From an uncultured Thalassospira sp. (lineage in GTDB: Bacteria; Pseudomonadota; Alphaproteobacteria; Rhodospirillales_A; Thalassospiraceae): DNA of 40,573 nt. Every line of letters starts with the position of its first letter. Positions within the stretch are counted from its first letter, which is position 1. Positions 22,883-29,626 of the stretch are shown here, in pieces. Below the pieces are notes generated by a model. That model worked only from the letters and a program-made list of their open reading frames with translations. It was not told the origin of the DNA and did not search any database. The DNA lies in the NCBI GenBank assembly GCA_946885765.1, contig CAMPHD010000001.1:1-40573 (forward strand), given 5' to 3'. The translations under genes were made by a program, and so were the position numbers.

Positions 22883-23386
22883 TCAGGCCGTTTTCACCAA
22901 CTGTAAGGGCCGCGCCATTTTCCAGTATGTGGTGCGGTCGTATCCGTCATGAACGCCTTCGCCGGAGATTTCAAACCCGCGCGATTTGAAAAAGGCAATA
23001 TTGCCGGTCAGTTCGACCCGAACATGAAGCCGCATGCTTTCCTTGCCCGCGCTTTCGGCATGGGTGCATGCCGCCTCGACCAGTGCCTTGCCGATGCCGC
23101 CGCCCTGAATGGATGGATCGACCGACAATTTATAAAGATAGGCGTCCTTTCCGACATCCTCGACCCAGACCTGCCCAAGAACACGACCAACTGAATCATG
23201 CGCCAGAAACAGCCTGTCACGGGCAAAACGCCACTGCAGTTCGGTAATATTGACCGATTGCGCCGAACTGGGCGGATCAACGATATCGTCCTGAAAGGCA
23301 AAGGCCGCCAGCAGGATTTCGACAAGCCGGTCGAACGGGACAAGGGCGGGATCGCAGGGCGATGTGATCTCGATACTGGATGTCAT
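22883..23386 (-). CDS. GNAT-family N-acetyltransferase
   Basis: The 167-residue protein has the GNAT fold. The acetyl-CoA-binding motif A is visible as LYKLSVDPSIQGGGIGKALV (the Q-x-x-G-x-G/A pattern is QGGGIG), followed by a helix and the C-terminal NIAFFKSRGFEISGEG. The substrate is not predictable. It ends convergently with the HxlR gene only 12 bases away and is divergent from accA. Confidence 0.92.
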   Translation of the reverse strand: MTSSIEITSPCDPALVPFDRLVEILLAAFAFQDDIVDPPSSAQSVNITELQWRFARDRLFLAHDSVGRVLGQVWVEDVGKDAYLYKLSVDPSIQGGGIGKALVEAACTHAESAGKESMRLHVRVELTGNIAFFKSRGFEISGEGVHDGYDRTTYWKMARPLQLVKTA

Positions 23387-23544
23387 GGATTTCCGTATGC
23401 AAAACTGTCACTGTGCAGGATGAAATATACGATATAACCCGTGGATCGATGGATTTTATATGCGTATCGGACCTCAACCCTTGACGTGACGGGTTGATCA
23501 ACTATGTTCCGCCTCATTGTTTCCCAGCCGGATATGATGCCCTG

Positions 23545-24501
23545 ATGCATAACTTTCTGGATTTTGAAAAGCCGATCGCCGAACTCGAAGGCAAGATCGA
23601 AGAATTGCGCCACCTGACCGGCAATGATGAAGTCAACATCGCCGACGAGGTTGCGCGCCTGCAGGACAAGCTGACCAAGCTGCTGCAAAGCACCTATGGC
23701 AAGCTGACCCCGTGGCAGAAAACACAGGTCGCCCGTCATCCCGACCGGCCGCATTTCACCGACTATGTCGCCCACCTGTTCGAGGGTTTCACCCCGCTTG
23801 CTGGCGACCGCCTGTTTGGCGAAGACGAGGCCATCATTGGTGGTCTGGCGCGCCTGCAAGGGCGCAGCGTGATGGTGATCGGTCATGAAAAGGGTCGCGA
23901 TACTGAATCACGTGTGAAACACAATTTCGGCATGGCCAAGCCCGAAGGCTATCGCAAGTCGATCCGCCTGATGCGTATGGCCGAACGTTTCGGCATTCCG
24001 GTCATCACACTGGTCGATACCGCCGGTGCCTTTCCGGGTGCCGACGCCGAGGCACGTGGCCAATCCGAAGCCATCGCACGTTCAATCGAAGCCTGCCTTG
24101 ATATCAAGGTGCCGCTGATTTCGATCATCATCGGCGAAGGTGGCTCTGGCGGGGCAATTGCACTTGCCGTTGCCAATACCGTCATGATGCTTGAAAATTC
24201 GATCTATTCCGTCATTTCGCCGGAAGGCTGCGCCTCGATCCTGTGGCGTTCGGGTGACGAAGCCAAAACCGCTGCGGATGCGCTGCGCCTAACGGCGCAG
24301 GATCTGCATCAGCTTGGCGTCATTGATGAAATCATCACTGAACCGCTTGGCGGCGCACAGCGTTCACCCGTTGATGCCTGCAAACGCGTTGGCGATGCGA
24401 TCATCAAGGCACTTGAATCGATGGACAATGTCGAAGGTGGCGTTCTCAAGGCGCGTCGTCGTGACAAGTTCCTCGATATGGGCCGTCACGGCCTGAACTG
24501 A
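23545..24501 (+). CDS. accA: Acetyl-CoA carboxylase carboxyltransferase subunit alpha
   Basis: The 318-residue protein is the alpha subunit of the carboxyltransferase that moves CO2 from biotin to acetyl-CoA in fatty-acid synthesis; it partners AccD. Family markers are [19 protein letters not shown] at the start, [11 protein letters not shown], the Rossmann-like [21 protein letters not shown], the oxyanion-hole loop [14 protein letters not shown], and [17 protein letters not shown] 23545 is chosen because family similarity begins with [10 protein letters not shown]; the frame is open to 23494, but upstream residues are unrelated. No strong ribosome-binding site is visible. The gene is monocistronic with a terminator downstream. 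Confidence 0.96.
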
Positions 24502-24631: not shown

Positions 24632-25447
24632 ATGGAAAAGCTGCGCCGGATTGTCGAATCTTCAAAGTTCCAGAATTTCATCACGGCAGTGATTGCGATC
24701 AATGCTGTCATTCTCGGACTTGAAACTTCCCAAACCGTCATGAATGCCGCTGGATCAATCCTTCATCTGCTTGATCAGATCGCGGTTGCAATTTTCGTCA
24801 TCGAACTTCTGATGAAACTTGCCGTATATCGTCTGGGATTTTTCCGGCGGTCCTGGAATATCTTTGATTTCACGATTGTTGCCATCACCCTGTTACCAAT
24901 GGGGCAGGGCGTATCGGTTCTGCGTGCGCTTCGAATCCTGCGTGCCTTCCGGCTGATCTCGACCGTAGCCTCCATGCGCAAGGTCGTCGAAGCCCTGATG
25001 AAAGCCATCCCCGGTATGGTTTCGGTCCTGACCCTGCTGTCGCTGGTATTTTACGTTTCCGCCGTCATGGCAACCAAGCTGTTCGGGTCGGGTTTCCCCG
25101 ACTGGTTTGGCACAATCGGCGCATCGCTTTATTCCCTGTTCCAGATCATGACGCTGGAAAGCTGGTCAATGGGAATCGTCCGGCCGGTTATGGAAATCTA
25201 TCCACTGGCGTGGATGTTTTTTGTGCCTTTCATCCTGGTTACGACTTTTGCCGTTCTCAACCTGTTCATCGCCATTGTCGTCGATGCGATGGCGACCCAT
25301 GTTGACGTCGAAGAAACGCAGACTCGTAATGAACTCGGCCTTGATCACCATGAAATCCTTGCAGAACTGCGGGAATTGCGCGCCGAAGTCACCCGGCTTG
25401 CCGATGGCAAAAAAGACGTCAATACGGTTCAACACCCCGGTGAATAG
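24632..25447 (+). CDS. Voltage-gated sodium channel (NaChBac/NavAb type)
   Basis: The 271-residue protein is a single-domain six-helix channel that assembles as a tetramer in the inner membrane. S1-S4 occupy about residues 10-125. The S4 helix carries Arg at every third position (R98, R101, R104, R107 in VLRALRILRAFRLIS). The pore loop has the selectivity filter TLESWSM (174-180), the bacterial Nav signature TLESW. S6 is at about 190-222. A C-terminal heptad segment (about 235-257, ILAELRELRAEVTRLADG) is the usual tetramerising coiled coil. ATG 24632 has GGGAGG six bases upstream. It may lead a co-directional group with the next three genes, though the 133-base gap argues for separate transcription. 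Confidence 0.95.
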   Translation: MEKLRRIVESSKFQNFITAVIAINAVILGLETSQTVMNAAGSILHLLDQIAVAIFVIELLMKLAVYRLGFFRRSWNIFDFTIVAITLLPMGQGVSVLRALRILRAFRLISTVASMRKVVEALMKAIPGMVSVLTLLSLVFYVSAVMATKLFGSGFPDWFGTIGASLYSLFQIMTLESWSMGIVRPVMEIYPLAWMFFVPFILVTTFAVLNLFIAIVVDAMATHVDVEETQTRNELGLDHHEILAELRELRAEVTRLADGKKDVNTVQHPGE

Positions 25448-25580
25448 CGCATAATATCTTGCTGAACGACGGGTCAGCCCACCGCTTTTATCGGGAAAAT
25501 TAGCATTTCTCTATCAAAGGGGGTGGTTCTTTGCCCCAAACCTCGTCTAATCTTTCGGCAAAATGTCGGGAGATCGGGGA

Positions 25581-26360
25581 ATGAAGCTTACGTTTGCGGG
25601 GACAGGTTCGGCATTTTGCATGGCGGCTGACAATTTCCAGAGCAATATGGTTCTGGAAGCAGTTCAGCCCGGCAGCGCCCAACCGGCACGCATGTTGGTT
25701 GACTGCGGTTCAGATGCGCGGCACTCGCTACGCAATCTGGGCTATATGCCCAATGACTTTGATGCTGTCTATATCAGCCATCTGCATTCGGATCATATTG
25801 GTGGTCTCGAATGGATGGCACTTGCCAATTATTTCATCTTCGAAGGACACCGGGTCAAATTGCTGGCGGTCCATGATCTGATCGAACCGCTTTGGGAACA
25901 CAGCCTGCGCGGCGGTCTTCAGATTAGCGACACGGGCAACAGCAGCCTGTCATCCTATTTCGACATCAAGGAACTCACCTCTGCCAAGGGCTTTGACTGG
26001 CAGGATGTGCATTTTGATGTCATCCCGGTCGAACATGTCGTAACCGCGCAAAATACCATGCTGTCCTATGCACTGTTCGGGCATGGGAAAAAACAAAGCT
26101 TTTTCCTGACGACAGATGCGATTTTCAATCCTGATGCCCATATGCCGTTGTACCAAAAAGCAGATATCATCTTTCAGGATTGCGAACTTGGCCCCCGCCA
26201 TTCCGGCGTTCATGCCCATTACGAACAACTTGTGACCCTGCCCGCCGAAATCAAAGCCAAAATGTGGCTCTATCACTATCAGGCCTATCCAAAGCCCGAT
26301 GCGATTTCTGATGGCTTTTGCGGATTTGTTGAACCGGGTCAAAGTTTCGAACTTGGCTAA
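25581..26360 (+). CDS. Metallo-beta-lactamase-fold hydrolase (RNase Z / cyclic nucleotide phosphodiesterase-like)
   Basis: The 259-residue protein has the MBL fold. It starts with the strand MKLTFAGTGSAF (common in RNase Z-like and class II phosphodiesterase-like members). The zinc motif is HLHSDHIGG (HxHxDH), with further ligands likely His in VEHVV, Asp in LTTDA and a C-terminal His in WLYHYQAY. It lacks a recognisable exosite arm for tRNA. The substrate is unknown; its place next to a gene with a cyclic-nucleotide-binding domain makes phosphodiesterase activity worth testing. ATG 25581 is favoured (GGAG about 8 bases upstream); ATG 25563 in frame would add six residues. Confidence 0.85.
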   Translation: MKLTFAGTGSAFCMAADNFQSNMVLEAVQPGSAQPARMLVDCGSDARHSLRNLGYMPNDFDAVYISHLHSDHIGGLEWMALANYFIFEGHRVKLLAVHDLIEPLWEHSLRGGLQISDTGNSSLSSYFDIKELTSAKGFDWQDVHFDVIPVEHVVTAQNTMLSYALFGHGKKQSFFLTTDAIFNPDAHMPLYQKADIIFQDCELGPRHSGVHAHYEQLVTLPAEIKAKMWLYHYQAYPKPDAISDGFCGFVEPGQSFELG

Positions 26361-26446: not shown

Positions 26447-29400
26447 ATGCCAAAGTCGGTTTTTGCCTATATCTGGCGCCATAGCAGCACACAGCAAATC
26501 ATCCTGACACTGGTCACGATGATATCCTTTCCGTTTCTGTATTACTCGCTGGATTTGCCGAAACTGATCGTCAACGAGGCAATCGGTGGCGCGGGTGAAC
26601 CTTATGATGTACTCGGGATCGAGCTGAACCAGATCGAATATCTGTTCGCGCTTTCAGGTATTTTCCTGGCACTCGTTTTCATCAATGGCGGGTTCAAGTA
26701 TTTCATCAACGTCTATGTCGGTGTGATGTCCGAACGGCTTTTGCGCCGGTTGCGCTATACCCTGTTTGAACGGGTCCTGCGTTTTCCCCTGCCCCATTTC
26801 CGCAAAACCAGCCAGGGCGAAATCGTTTCGATGATCACCGCCGAAGCAGAACCGCTTGGCGGTTTCTTTGGTGAAGCATTTTCATTGCCGCTCTATCAGG
26901 GCGGCATTCTTCTGACGATTACGGCCTTTATCTTCATTCAGGATCCGCTGATGGGGCTGGCCGCAATTTCGTTTTATCCGTTGCAGGGATATCTGATCCC
27001 GAAACTGCAACGCCGCGTGAACCAGCTTGGCAAACAGCGCGTGCAGAATGTGCGCCGGATGTCTGAACATATCGGCGAAGTCGTCGCCGGTGCGACCGAC
27101 ATTCGCGCCCATGAAACCCAAGGGTACGAACTTACCCATTTCACCCAGCGGATGGGCCGGATTTTTGAAATCCGCAAGGAAATCTATTTCCGCAAATTCT
27201 TTATCAAGTTCCTGAACAACTTCATCGCCCAGATCACACCGTTCTTCTTCTATTCCATCGGCGGTTATCTGGTGATCATGGGGGATCTCAGCTTCGGTGC
27301 GCTGGTCGCGGCCCTTGCCGCCTACAAGGACATGTCCGCCCCCTGGAAAGAGCTTCTGGCCTATTACCAGCGTCTGGCCGATGCCCGGATCAAATACGAA
27401 CAGCTTCACGAACAGTTCGAACTGCCCGATCTTGGCCGCGAACACGAACTTTTGGCATCACCATCGGAATCCCTGCCGGGACCGCTGGATGTCGCGGCCC
27501 TGTCGTGGGTTGATGATGACGGCACCCGGGTTGTTGAAAATGTGTCCTTCAACATGGCGCTGCCGGGTACAGCCCTTCTGACCGGTTCCGCCGATAGCGG
27601 AAAGTCGCAACTCGCCCGCCTGATCGCCCGGTTGCTGACACCAACCGGTGGCCGCATACAGTTTAATGACCGCAATGCCGAAGACCTTCCGGCATCGACA
27701 CTGGGGCAACGCCTGGCCTATATCGGCAATGATGCCTATCTGTTTAATGGCACCATCGCCGACAACCTGTTTTACGGGCTGAAACATCGCCCGATCCTTG
27801 CTTCCCGATCAGATGACGGCGATGACAGCTCGGAAAACCTGAAACTGCCATTGCCGAAATTCGTCGATAATGTCGAACTTGCCGACCCGAGCGATCTGCC
27901 ATGGCGCCTGACCGACGAGATGTACGACGAAATCAAGCGTTCCGGGAATATCCCCTATGACCCGGCAGCGGAATGGATCGACTATGTCGGGCCTGGCTTC
28001 AATTCGATTGATGAATTGAAGGCCGAACTGATGCGCCTGCTCGAAGTTGTTCAGCTTGATCGCGACATTTACCGCATCGGCCTGCAACGCCGCATTGATC
28101 CGAAAGAACGCCCGGATCTGGTCGAAGCCGTTCTGGTTGCCCGCCCGAAACTGAAGGAAATTCTTGCGGAACGCGGCCTGTCTGACCTGGTCGAACCCTA
28201 TGACATTGACCTTTACAACGACAACGCACCGGTCGGCGTGAACATTCTTTTTGGTGCTCCGGCCCGATCCGATTTCGAACGCATGGCATTCCTGTCGCAT
28301 CCCTATATGCAGGAAACCCTGCGGGAAACCGGACTTTACGAAGTCATGATCAGCATCGGCCGCGATACGCTTGATCTGATGATCGAACTGTTTACCGGCC
28401 TGCCGCCCGGACACGAATTCTTTGACCGTTACAGCTTTATCTCGGCCGACGAACTGCCCGAGGTCAAAAACATGCTGAAACGGACCGACGGGGTCGCGAT
28501 CAAGGATATGCGCGCCGAGGATAAGCTGAAGCTCCTTGACGTCGCCATGAACCTGACCCCGGCACGCCATCGTTTGCGCGTGATCGATGACGAATTCCGC
28601 CAGCTGGTCCTGAAAGCACGACCGAAATTCTACGGCAATCTGCCCGACGATCTCGCTGAAATGATCGATTTCTTCAAGGTCGATGAATATGCCGCCGCCG
28701 CCCCGGTCATCGATAACCTTCTGTTCGGTCGTTTTGCCTATGGCCGTGCAAATTCCGAAGAACGTGTCGGCGAAGTACTGTTTGAAATCGCCCATGAAGG
28801 CGGCCTTTACGAGGCGCTTGTCGCACTTGGCCTTGAAAGCCAGGTCGGTGTCGGTGGCAGCCGTGTTTCGCAAAGCCTGCGCCAGAAGATTGCGCTGGTC
28901 CGTGCCCTGATCAAAAATCCCGACCTGATGGTCGTGGACGAAGCCCTTTCGGCACTGGACCGTGAAACACGCGAACAGGTCATTGCCTGGCTGACCGGAC
29001 AGGCCGAACATCGCAGCGTGATCTGGGTCGATGGCGACGATACCGACAGTCAGCGTTTCGGGACTTATCTGCACATGGCGAACGGCAAGATCGTCAAACG
29101 CCAAAGCCATGCAATCGACGACGCCACCGCCGAAGAGGCCGAGGAAGAAGCCGCCGAAGCCGCACCCGATACAAGCGATGGCAGCATCGAAGAGGAAGTC
29201 CGGTTGCTTCGGACCATTCCGCTGTTTGCCGGTCTTGACCCGAGCGTGATCAAGCTGCTGGCCTTTACCAGCCCGCGCCTCACCTTCAAACGCGGCGAAC
29301 TTCTGGTCAAGCAGGGCGATCCGGGCGATGCGGCCTATATCGTGATTTCCGGTCGCGGTGAAATCTGGCTGACGACCGAGGAAGCCCAGACCATCAAACT

Positions 29401-29626
29401 TCGCGATGTCGACCCCAAGGAAGTCATCGGTGAAATCGCCCTTCTGGTCGATGCACCCCGTTCCGCAACCATTCGCGCGGTCGAGGAAATGACGGTCCTG
29501 AAACTCGATAAAAACGAGTTCCTTGGCCTTGTCCGACAGGACCAGGCGGTTGCCGTCCAGTTGATCCGTGTTCTGGCACACCGCGTTGATGTCACCACCA
29601 AACAGCTTACCAGCCGAAATAACTGA
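26447..29626 (+). CDS. ABC transporter-like protein with split, degenerate ATPase and C-terminal cyclic-nucleotide-binding domain
   Basis: This 1059-residue protein has an ABC exporter-type membrane domain (about 10-320, with segments at 15-35, 60-85, 145-185 and 250-290) and an ATPase region that is interrupted. Walker A is present (GSADSGKS, 380-387). The Q-loop position reads YIGND instead of the usual Gln. An insertion of about 320 residues (about 447-770) then separates it from the rest: a degenerate signature VSQSL (807-811), Walker B with its Glu (LMVVDEALSALD, 827-838) and no switch His (WVDGDD). An acidic Ala/Glu linker (about 885-915) leads to a CNB domain (918-1050) with GEIALLVDAPRSATIRA, the phosphate-binding cassette with its Glu and Arg. 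I infer a cyclic-nucleotide-regulated membrane protein whose ATPase may be weak or need a partner. No substrate can be named. The ribosome-binding site is weak. Confidence 0.85.
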   Translation: MPKSVFAYIWRHSSTQQIILTLVTMISFPFLYYSLDLPKLIVNEAIGGAGEPYDVLGIELNQIEYLFALSGIFLALVFINGGFKYFINVYVGVMSERLLRRLRYTLFERVLRFPLPHFRKTSQGEIVSMITAEAEPLGGFFGEAFSLPLYQGGILLTITAFIFIQDPLMGLAAISFYPLQGYLIPKLQRRVNQLGKQRVQNVRRMSEHIGEVVAGATDIRAHETQGYELTHFTQRMGRIFEIRKEIYFRKFFIKFLNNFIAQITPFFFYSIGGYLVIMGDLSFGALVAALAAYKDMSAPWKELLAYYQRLADARIKYEQLHEQFELPDLGREHELLASPSESLPGPLDVAALSWVDDDGTRVVENVSFNMALPGTALLTGSADSGKSQLARLIARLLTPTGGRIQFNDRNAEDLPASTLGQRLAYIGNDAYLFNGTIADNLFYGLKHRPILASRSDDGDDSSENLKLPLPKFVDNVELADPSDLPWRLTDEMYDEIKRSGNIPYDPAAEWIDYVGPGFNSIDELKAELMRLLEVVQLDRDIYRIGLQRRIDPKERPDLVEAVLVARPKLKEILAERGLSDLVEPYDIDLYNDNAPVGVNILFGAPARSDFERMAFLSHPYMQETLRETGLYEVMISIGRDTLDLMIELFTGLPPGHEFFDRYSFISADELPEVKNMLKRTDGVAIKDMRAEDKLKLLDVAMNLTPARHRLRVIDDEFRQLVLKARPKFYGNLPDDLAEMIDFFKVDEYAAAAPVIDNLLFGRFAYGRANSEERVGEVLFEIAHEGGLYEALVALGLESQVGVGGSRVSQSLRQKIALVRALIKNPDLMVVDEALSALDRETREQVIAWLTGQAEHRSVIWVDGDDTDSQRFGTYLHMANGKIVKRQSHAIDDATAEEAEEEAAEAAPDTSDGSIEEEVRLLRTIPLFAGLDPSVIKLLAFTSPRLTFKRGELLVKQGDPGDAAYIVISGRGEIWLTTEEAQTIKLRDVDPKEVIGEIALLVDAPRSATIRAVEEMTVLKLDKNEFLGLVRQDQAVAVQLIRVLAHRVDVTTKQLTSRNN

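Follow-up and report, generated by a model that had tools for sequence, protein, structure and literature searches.

What does a protein do that has the fold of an ATP-binding cassette (ABC) exporter when its ATPase domain is split by a long insertion, departs from several canonical motifs and is followed by a cyclic-nucleotide-binding (CNB) domain? The question is raised by a gene for such a protein in a 40,573-nucleotide stretch of DNA from an uncultured Thalassospira sp. (contig CAMPHD010000001.1), hereafter the window (Table 1). From sequence comparisons and structure models we favor, with moderate confidence, the reading that it is a cyclic-nucleotide-controlled pseudo-ABC exporter. Control by a cyclic nucleotide in place of ATP turnover would fit because the ATPase motifs decay across the protein's family, the phosphate-binding cassette of the CNB is (nearly) invariant, and homologues of enzymes that act on cyclic nucleotides are encoded next door.

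A sequence-only reading of the window had described an ABC exporter-like protein with a fused CNB and had proposed profile searches on its separate segments. These bear the description out: Pfam recovers the transmembrane domain (TMD) as ABC_membrane (residues 67-290, 1.8e-24), ABC_tran split into two stretches (1.1e-13) and the CNB as cNMP_binding (residues 946-1032, 2.1e-21), the sole further match being a sub-threshold one to AAA_29. Alignments to exporters in the PDB cover residues ~64-450 and then ~780-888, and the stretch between is unmatched. The six-helix exporter TMD joined to a nucleotide-binding domain (NBD) fold is the combination by which type IV ABC exporters are recognized, and the modeled fold is that of a type IV ABC exporter. 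Pfam found no Ion_trans or K-channel pore domain in the protein, which sets it apart from cyclic-nucleotide-gated cation channels. The insertion in the ATPase domain, put at about 320 residues by the sequence-only reading, measures ~310 (residues 447-755) and has a repeat period of 158-159 residues. A module that extends from the Q-loop strand to within the helical (ABC-alpha) subdomain occurs three times in the NBD fold, and the second repeat (R2) weakly resembles ABC NBD regions in structure; internal duplication of this helical-subdomain module appears to have produced the insert.

Searching 5.8 billion proteins gave 2870 matches to the window protein. The best 120 all have 982-1206 residues and carry the ABC membrane, ABC_tran and cNMP_binding domains; together with the window protein they form the 121 family proteins counted below. 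Gene surroundings were taken from 80 loci (7 Thalassospira and 73 other), the best of 365 confirmed, and more divergent members may differ from either set. The insert was found in 80/80 of these fetched loci, and since full-length relatives share both the domains and the insert, chance and frame error are ruled out: judged by its relatives, the architecture of the window gene is real. A profile of the insert (E <= 1e-10) is present in 109/289 sampled genomes of the class and in 38/397 genomes of a phylum sample, where every match lies in the same class; some gamma- and betaproteobacterial metagenome-assembled genomes (MAGs) are among the family loci. The family is large and mainly alphaproteobacterial. 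It has relatives that consist of an exporter TMD and no NBD (307 matches at E<=0.001; those listed have 323-521 aa), in a search whose length filter removes full-length members by construction, and none of the 120 listed contains a P-loop. In a tree built on TMDs, the family and these stand-alone relatives separate from ten canonical exporters with support 99, the canonical exporters standing on very long branches that leave the rooting uncertain.

The motifs of the window protein are as the sequence-only reading had assigned them. Walker A (GSADSGKS, residues 380-387) and Walker B (VVDE, ending in D831/E832) are intact, while the Q-loop Gln is replaced by N428, LSGGQ by VSQSL at residues 807-811, and the switch His by G863, with D862 as its neighbor; the A-loop aromatic is also retained, as W354. 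Across the family the full Walker set (P-loop Lys, Ser/Thr, Walker B Asp and Glu) is kept by 33/121 proteins, which are exactly those at least 73% identical to the window protein (the window protein and P0002-P0033). We call this group, whose named members are mostly Thalassospira, the Thalassospira clade. Among the 80 loci plus the window (the loci set) the full set occurs in 8/81, confined to Thalassospira and the window, and outside the clade all four Walker residues occur together in none of the members examined. The Walker B Asp has become Asn in 75 of the 121 family proteins, 58 have a residue other than Ser/Thr directly after the P-loop Lys, and the Q-loop Gln is retained in 45. An exact LSGGQ occurs in none of the family proteins (0/121) and in one member of the loci set (1/81), and no family protein has His at the switch position (0/121).

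The CNB has fared differently at its putative ligand site. Its phosphate-binding cassette (residues 995-1008), which the sequence-only reading had judged to be retained, holds the Glu (E996) and Arg (R1005) that mark PKA/PKG-type domains; Gly995 and Arg1005 are invariant (121/121), Glu996 is retained in 119/121, and conservation at the level of sites is 0.81 for the cassette vs. 0.62 for Walker A. The top PDB matches are cGMP-dependent protein kinases, followed by PKA RI-alpha, and both share the cassette pattern GE-ALL--PRSATI with the window protein, whose CNB is instead attached to a membrane exporter fold. A survey of domain order, also proposed by the sequence-only reading, found the insert to be universal among the loci and the fused CNB to be a minority state: the CNB is a separate open reading frame (ORF) downstream of the ABC gene in 59/80 loci (spacing -3 to 118 nt, with one case of 523), fused in 16/80, not adjacent in 4/80 and cut off in 1/80. 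The fused state requires two changes on the family tree. One locus, from a Granulosicoccus MAG (L044:11520-12389), carries a separate CNB in addition to a fused one, and is scored among the 59 split loci as well as in the tree count. That a CNB of one kind occurs either fused or adjacent speaks for joint action of the sensor and the membrane protein. In members of ~1150-1200 aa (e.g., P0037, P0049, and P0058) a GGDEF-type domain without the GGDEF motif lies C-terminal to the CNB. PF00990 is annotated on 44 of the best 120 family proteins, and an active GGDEF in the long relatives was rejected, as GG[DE][DE]F was found in 0/45 proteins over 1130 aa (44 of the 45 annotated PF00990).

Immediately upstream of the window gene stands a homologue of Apyc1-type phosphodiesterases with a metallo-beta-lactamase (MBL) fold (Pfam 3.1e-27; PDB 7t28, 7u2s, and 7u2r at 2.1e-28 to 4e-25), which keeps the HxHxDH motif. 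According to the available text of the Apyc1 report, this metal motif characterizes class II MBL phosphodiesterases and phage anti-Pycsar nucleases belong to the Apyc1 family (PMC9117128); the window's homologue, by comparison, is bacterial and adjoins a CNB protein. All 29 genomes of the window's genus have one match each (29/29), and in every genome mapped (28/28) the gene lies directly upstream of the family gene, on the same contig and strand, at a distance of 49-124 nt. No Apyc1-type homologue was seen in the 73 non-Thalassospira loci, and 6/73 of these have an adjacent class III cyclase. In L027, L037, L046, L079, and L080 the cyclase is downstream of the CNB on the same strand, and in L044 it is the convergent neighbor. 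In L027 and L046 the CNB stop and the earliest start codon of the cyclase frame share a 4-nt overlap, as in translational coupling, although the L046 contig ends within the cyclase. Cyclases lie farther off in L049, L066, and L070 (1.3-2.6 kb), in L077 and L078 (about 0.8-1.5 kb and beyond), and in L042, L058, and L073 (>5 kb). Adjacency requires four changes on the family tree, in a count that took in five of the six loci (L046 left out). Class III cyclases number 1-16 per genome in 60 sampled alphaproteobacterial genomes, and assuming ~10 cyclases per 4,000 genes we would expect well under one adjacency by chance.

A working scheme for such a pseudo-exporter can be proposed from these parts. 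The cyclase would make cAMP or cGMP and the MBL enzyme would remove it; the nucleotide, presumably one of these two, would bind the CNB, and the ligand-bound CNB would move the enlarged NBD platform and then the TMD by way of the coupling helices. The ATP sandwich, which ordinarily closes the dimer, would be blocked or supplanted by the additional helical subdomains, and opening would track the cyclic nucleotide, not ATP hydrolysis, with ATP binding perhaps added in Thalassospira. The output may be a passive conduit, a flippase or the control of glycosyltransferases; near glycosyltransferase genes the protein most likely helps to move or assemble a glycan or glycolipid of the cell surface. This output is the least certain part of the scheme. 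More tentatively, the protein can be imagined as a bacterial conduit that is gated by cyclic nucleotides and derived from an ABC exporter fold, in which ATP gating has been exchanged for gating by cAMP or cGMP, tandem helical subdomains lock what was once the ATPase interface, and the switch is a detachable CNB subunit. CFTR and the sulfonylurea receptors are ABC exporter architectures that have lost pumping; they are eukaryotic, and ATP-/ADP-gated or regulatory. The sensor in the window protein would be the CNB instead, and a gated conduit, if true, would be a prokaryotic counterpart of this style of pumping loss, in a clade that includes ATPase-free exporter TMDs.

Several observations weigh against cyclic-nucleotide control. 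W354, K386, S387, D831, and E832 are all retained in 33/33 proteins of the Thalassospira clade, and since this clade keeps the A-loop Trp, the P-loop Lys/Ser and the Walker B Asp/Glu, the window protein may still bind ATP. The same may hold for nucleotide binding more widely, because the P-loop Lys (111/121 family proteins and 54/81 of the loci set) and the catalytic Glu (102/121 and 51/81) are mostly kept; His stands at the switch position in 16/81 of the loci set. Mean identity to the majority residue is equal for the whole CNB and the N-terminal NBD (0.57 each). An adjacent cyclase is missing from 67/73 non-Thalassospira loci, several of them with short flanks. CNB folds can bind other ligands, as that of the cyanobacterial exporter HetC binds ppGpp in vitro (PMC10986499, available text). 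A glycosyltransferase neighborhood, finally, was found in the flanks of 0/7 Thalassospira loci and 0/4 loci of an Aestuariispiraceae clade (L023, L029, L030, and L036), so for the lineage to which the window belongs a connection with glycans is not established. The suggestion of the sequence-only reading that cAMP or cGMP, rather than ATP turnover, gates the protein accordingly survives in part: motif decay, cassette conservation and the neighboring enzymes favor it, while the Walker set and A-loop Trp of the Thalassospira clade do not, and the gating itself stays putative.

Other explanations share some of this evidence. We think it rather unlikely that the protein acts, in the manner of the sulfonylurea receptor, as a regulatory receptor or scaffold that would sense a cyclic nucleotide and control partners such as adjoining glycosyltransferases with no transport of its own. 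The partners are at hand in many loci: in tblastn counts that score short-flank contigs as misses, and in which glycosyltransferase queries may cross-match, GT28-type queries and EpsE/WcaL-type (GT4) queries each match the flanks of 53/73 non-Thalassospira loci, and a second GT4 is found in 46/73. Decay of the ATPase motifs across the family also suits a receptor, and SUR2B is among the structural matches, though many transporters are too. The TMD (residues 1-330), however, has the highest mean identity to the majority of any domain of the family (0.72), which suggests that the membrane path itself matters, and the ATPase-free TMD relatives adjoin copper- and RND-efflux-like genes, with no CNB match in the 16-kb stretches of five such loci.

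An ATP-driven exporter with unorthodox motifs, modulated by its CNB, is less probable still. It would have a precedent in HetC, which like the window protein joins a CNB and an ABC exporter in one polypeptide and in which, in the available text, an ATPase residue is essential (PMC10986499). HetC, described there with an N-terminal CNB and a C39 peptidase, is the nearest characterized analogue found; in the window protein the CNB is C-terminal and the Pfam scan found no C39 peptidase. The five ATP-site residues kept throughout the Thalassospira clade would serve such an exporter, but the window protein is without the Q-loop Gln, LSGGQ and the switch His, and each examined member outside the clade has lost one or more of the four Walker residues with the rest of the protein retained.

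Heterodimeric ABC exporters with one degenerate site are well established, and the window protein might be the degenerate half of one, with a canonical partner supplying a single good ATP site. We regard this as very improbable: TM287/288 and TmrAB are among the structural matches, but Walker A and Walker B are themselves decayed in most family members. A recurrent neighboring partner was rejected as a candidate, with a second exporter TMD in 0/80 loci (flanks of <=10 kb where the contig allows, searched with a profile of ten canonical exporters), though a partner could be encoded at a distance in the genome. Hardly credible at all is an antiphage role like that of Pycsar effectors, with the membrane protein and CNB as effector and the Apyc1-type protein as its regulator, for although PADLOC Pycsar models match the CNB (2.6e-12) and the L037 cyclase neighbor (3.9e-22) and the Apyc1 family takes in the phage nucleases mentioned above, these matches fall on shared CNB and cyclase domains (the Pycsar-type ones among seven PADLOC matches on the window protein are located on the CNB), the gene is in 28/28 genomes of the genus and 109/289 of the class, and the scanned neighbors in the window are metabolic except for the Ion_trans and Apyc1-type genes.

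Set beside known systems, the window protein has the TMD and NBD folds and the TMD-NBD order in common with the type IV exporters MsbA, PCAT1/ComA, TM287/288, and ABCB1, and differs from them in its repeated helical-subdomain module, in its lost signature, Q-loop Gln and switch His, and in the associated CNB subunit or domain. TIGR03896 describes CNB proteins that accompany bacteriocin-type transporters; the split CNB of L012 scores 53.6 bits against it, far under the curated cut-off of 161. Searches of the open-access literature aimed at this layout brought up no family that combines a repeated helical subdomain with ATPase decay, a detachable CNB and TMD relatives that lack an ATPase, in agreement with the sequence-only reading, which knew of no characterized protein with this layout; apart from HetC they yielded a protocol paper on a CNB domain and papers judged unrelated. 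The family is apparently undescribed; its component parts are of known kinds and their combination appears to be new. It supplies a natural series, from canonical exporter through degenerate exporter with repeats and a sensor subunit to a TMD without ATPase, in which one can ask how the ABC transporter fold works without ATP hydrolysis. It also offers a direct test of whether an exporter fold can be driven by a cyclic nucleotide, and suggests that cAMP/cGMP may have an output next to alphaproteobacterial glycan genes.

Table 1. Coordinates of the window gene, its parts, the upstream gene and stand-alone TMD relatives (positions in the window unless a locus is named).
Feature	Position	Strand	Remarks
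Whole gene: TMD, NBD interrupted by helical-subdomain repeats, CNB	26447..29626	+	1059 aa, start ATG
Type IV ABC exporter TMD, residues 1-324	26447..27418	+	Pfam, structure model, family conservation
NBD N-terminal part, residues 341-446	27467..27784	+	Pfam, PDB alignment, motif reading, structure model
Walker A GSADSGKS, residues 380-387	27584-27607	+	in NBD N-terminal part
Degenerate Q-loop position N428	27728-27730	+	in NBD N-terminal part
Insert, tail of repeat R1, residues 447-575	27785..28171	+	variable link 447-489, conserved helices after
Insert, repeat R2, residues 576-733	28172..28645	+	extra copy of ABC helical-subdomain module (NAPVGVNILFG ... GLYEVMISIGR)
Repeat R3, residues 734-893: last module copy and C-terminal NBD	28646..29125	+	
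Signature position VSQSL, residues 807-811	28865-28879	+	in R3
Walker B, residues 827-832	28925-28942	+	in R3
Switch-His position G863	29033-29035	+	in R3
CNB domain, residues 913-1058	29183..29620	+	Pfam, PDB match
CNB phosphate-binding cassette, residues 995-1008	29429-29470	+	GEIALLVDAPRSAT
Apyc1-type MBL-fold phosphodiesterase homologue, HLHSDH (HxHxDH) motif	25563..26360	+	86 nt upstream of family gene
Stand-alone TMD	L081:7447-8646	+	
Stand-alone TMD	L082:7705-8670	-	
Stand-alone TMD	L083:6964-8268	+	
Stand-alone TMD	L084:7409-8662	-	

Some further neighbors recur or stand out. As read from sequence alone, the stand-alone TMD of L081 is flanked by multicopper-oxidase-like and P-type-ATPase-like genes, and an RND-efflux-like gene lies near that of L084. 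The flanks of the 73 non-Thalassospira loci hold a histidine phosphatase in 39, a DUF2334-like protein in 36 and Methyltransf_17 (PF12692) in 33, the last of these directly after the ABC/CNB pair in L012 (13129-13614). A conserved 167-aa protein (L009:9831-10331 and relatives), with no Pfam or NCBIfam match, occurs in 30/73; in L009 its gene is bordered by the family gene on one side and by an oligopeptide-type ABC gene set on the other. The window itself has a 167-aa ORF (23386-23886, minus strand) with no Pfam match; it overlaps an accA-like ORF on the opposite strand (23494-24501) and is probably not a gene. An Ion_trans protein of 271 aa (24632-25447, plus strand), about the length of a bacterial voltage-gated sodium channel, is encoded just upstream of the window's Apyc1-type gene and occurs in 4/7 Thalassospira loci.

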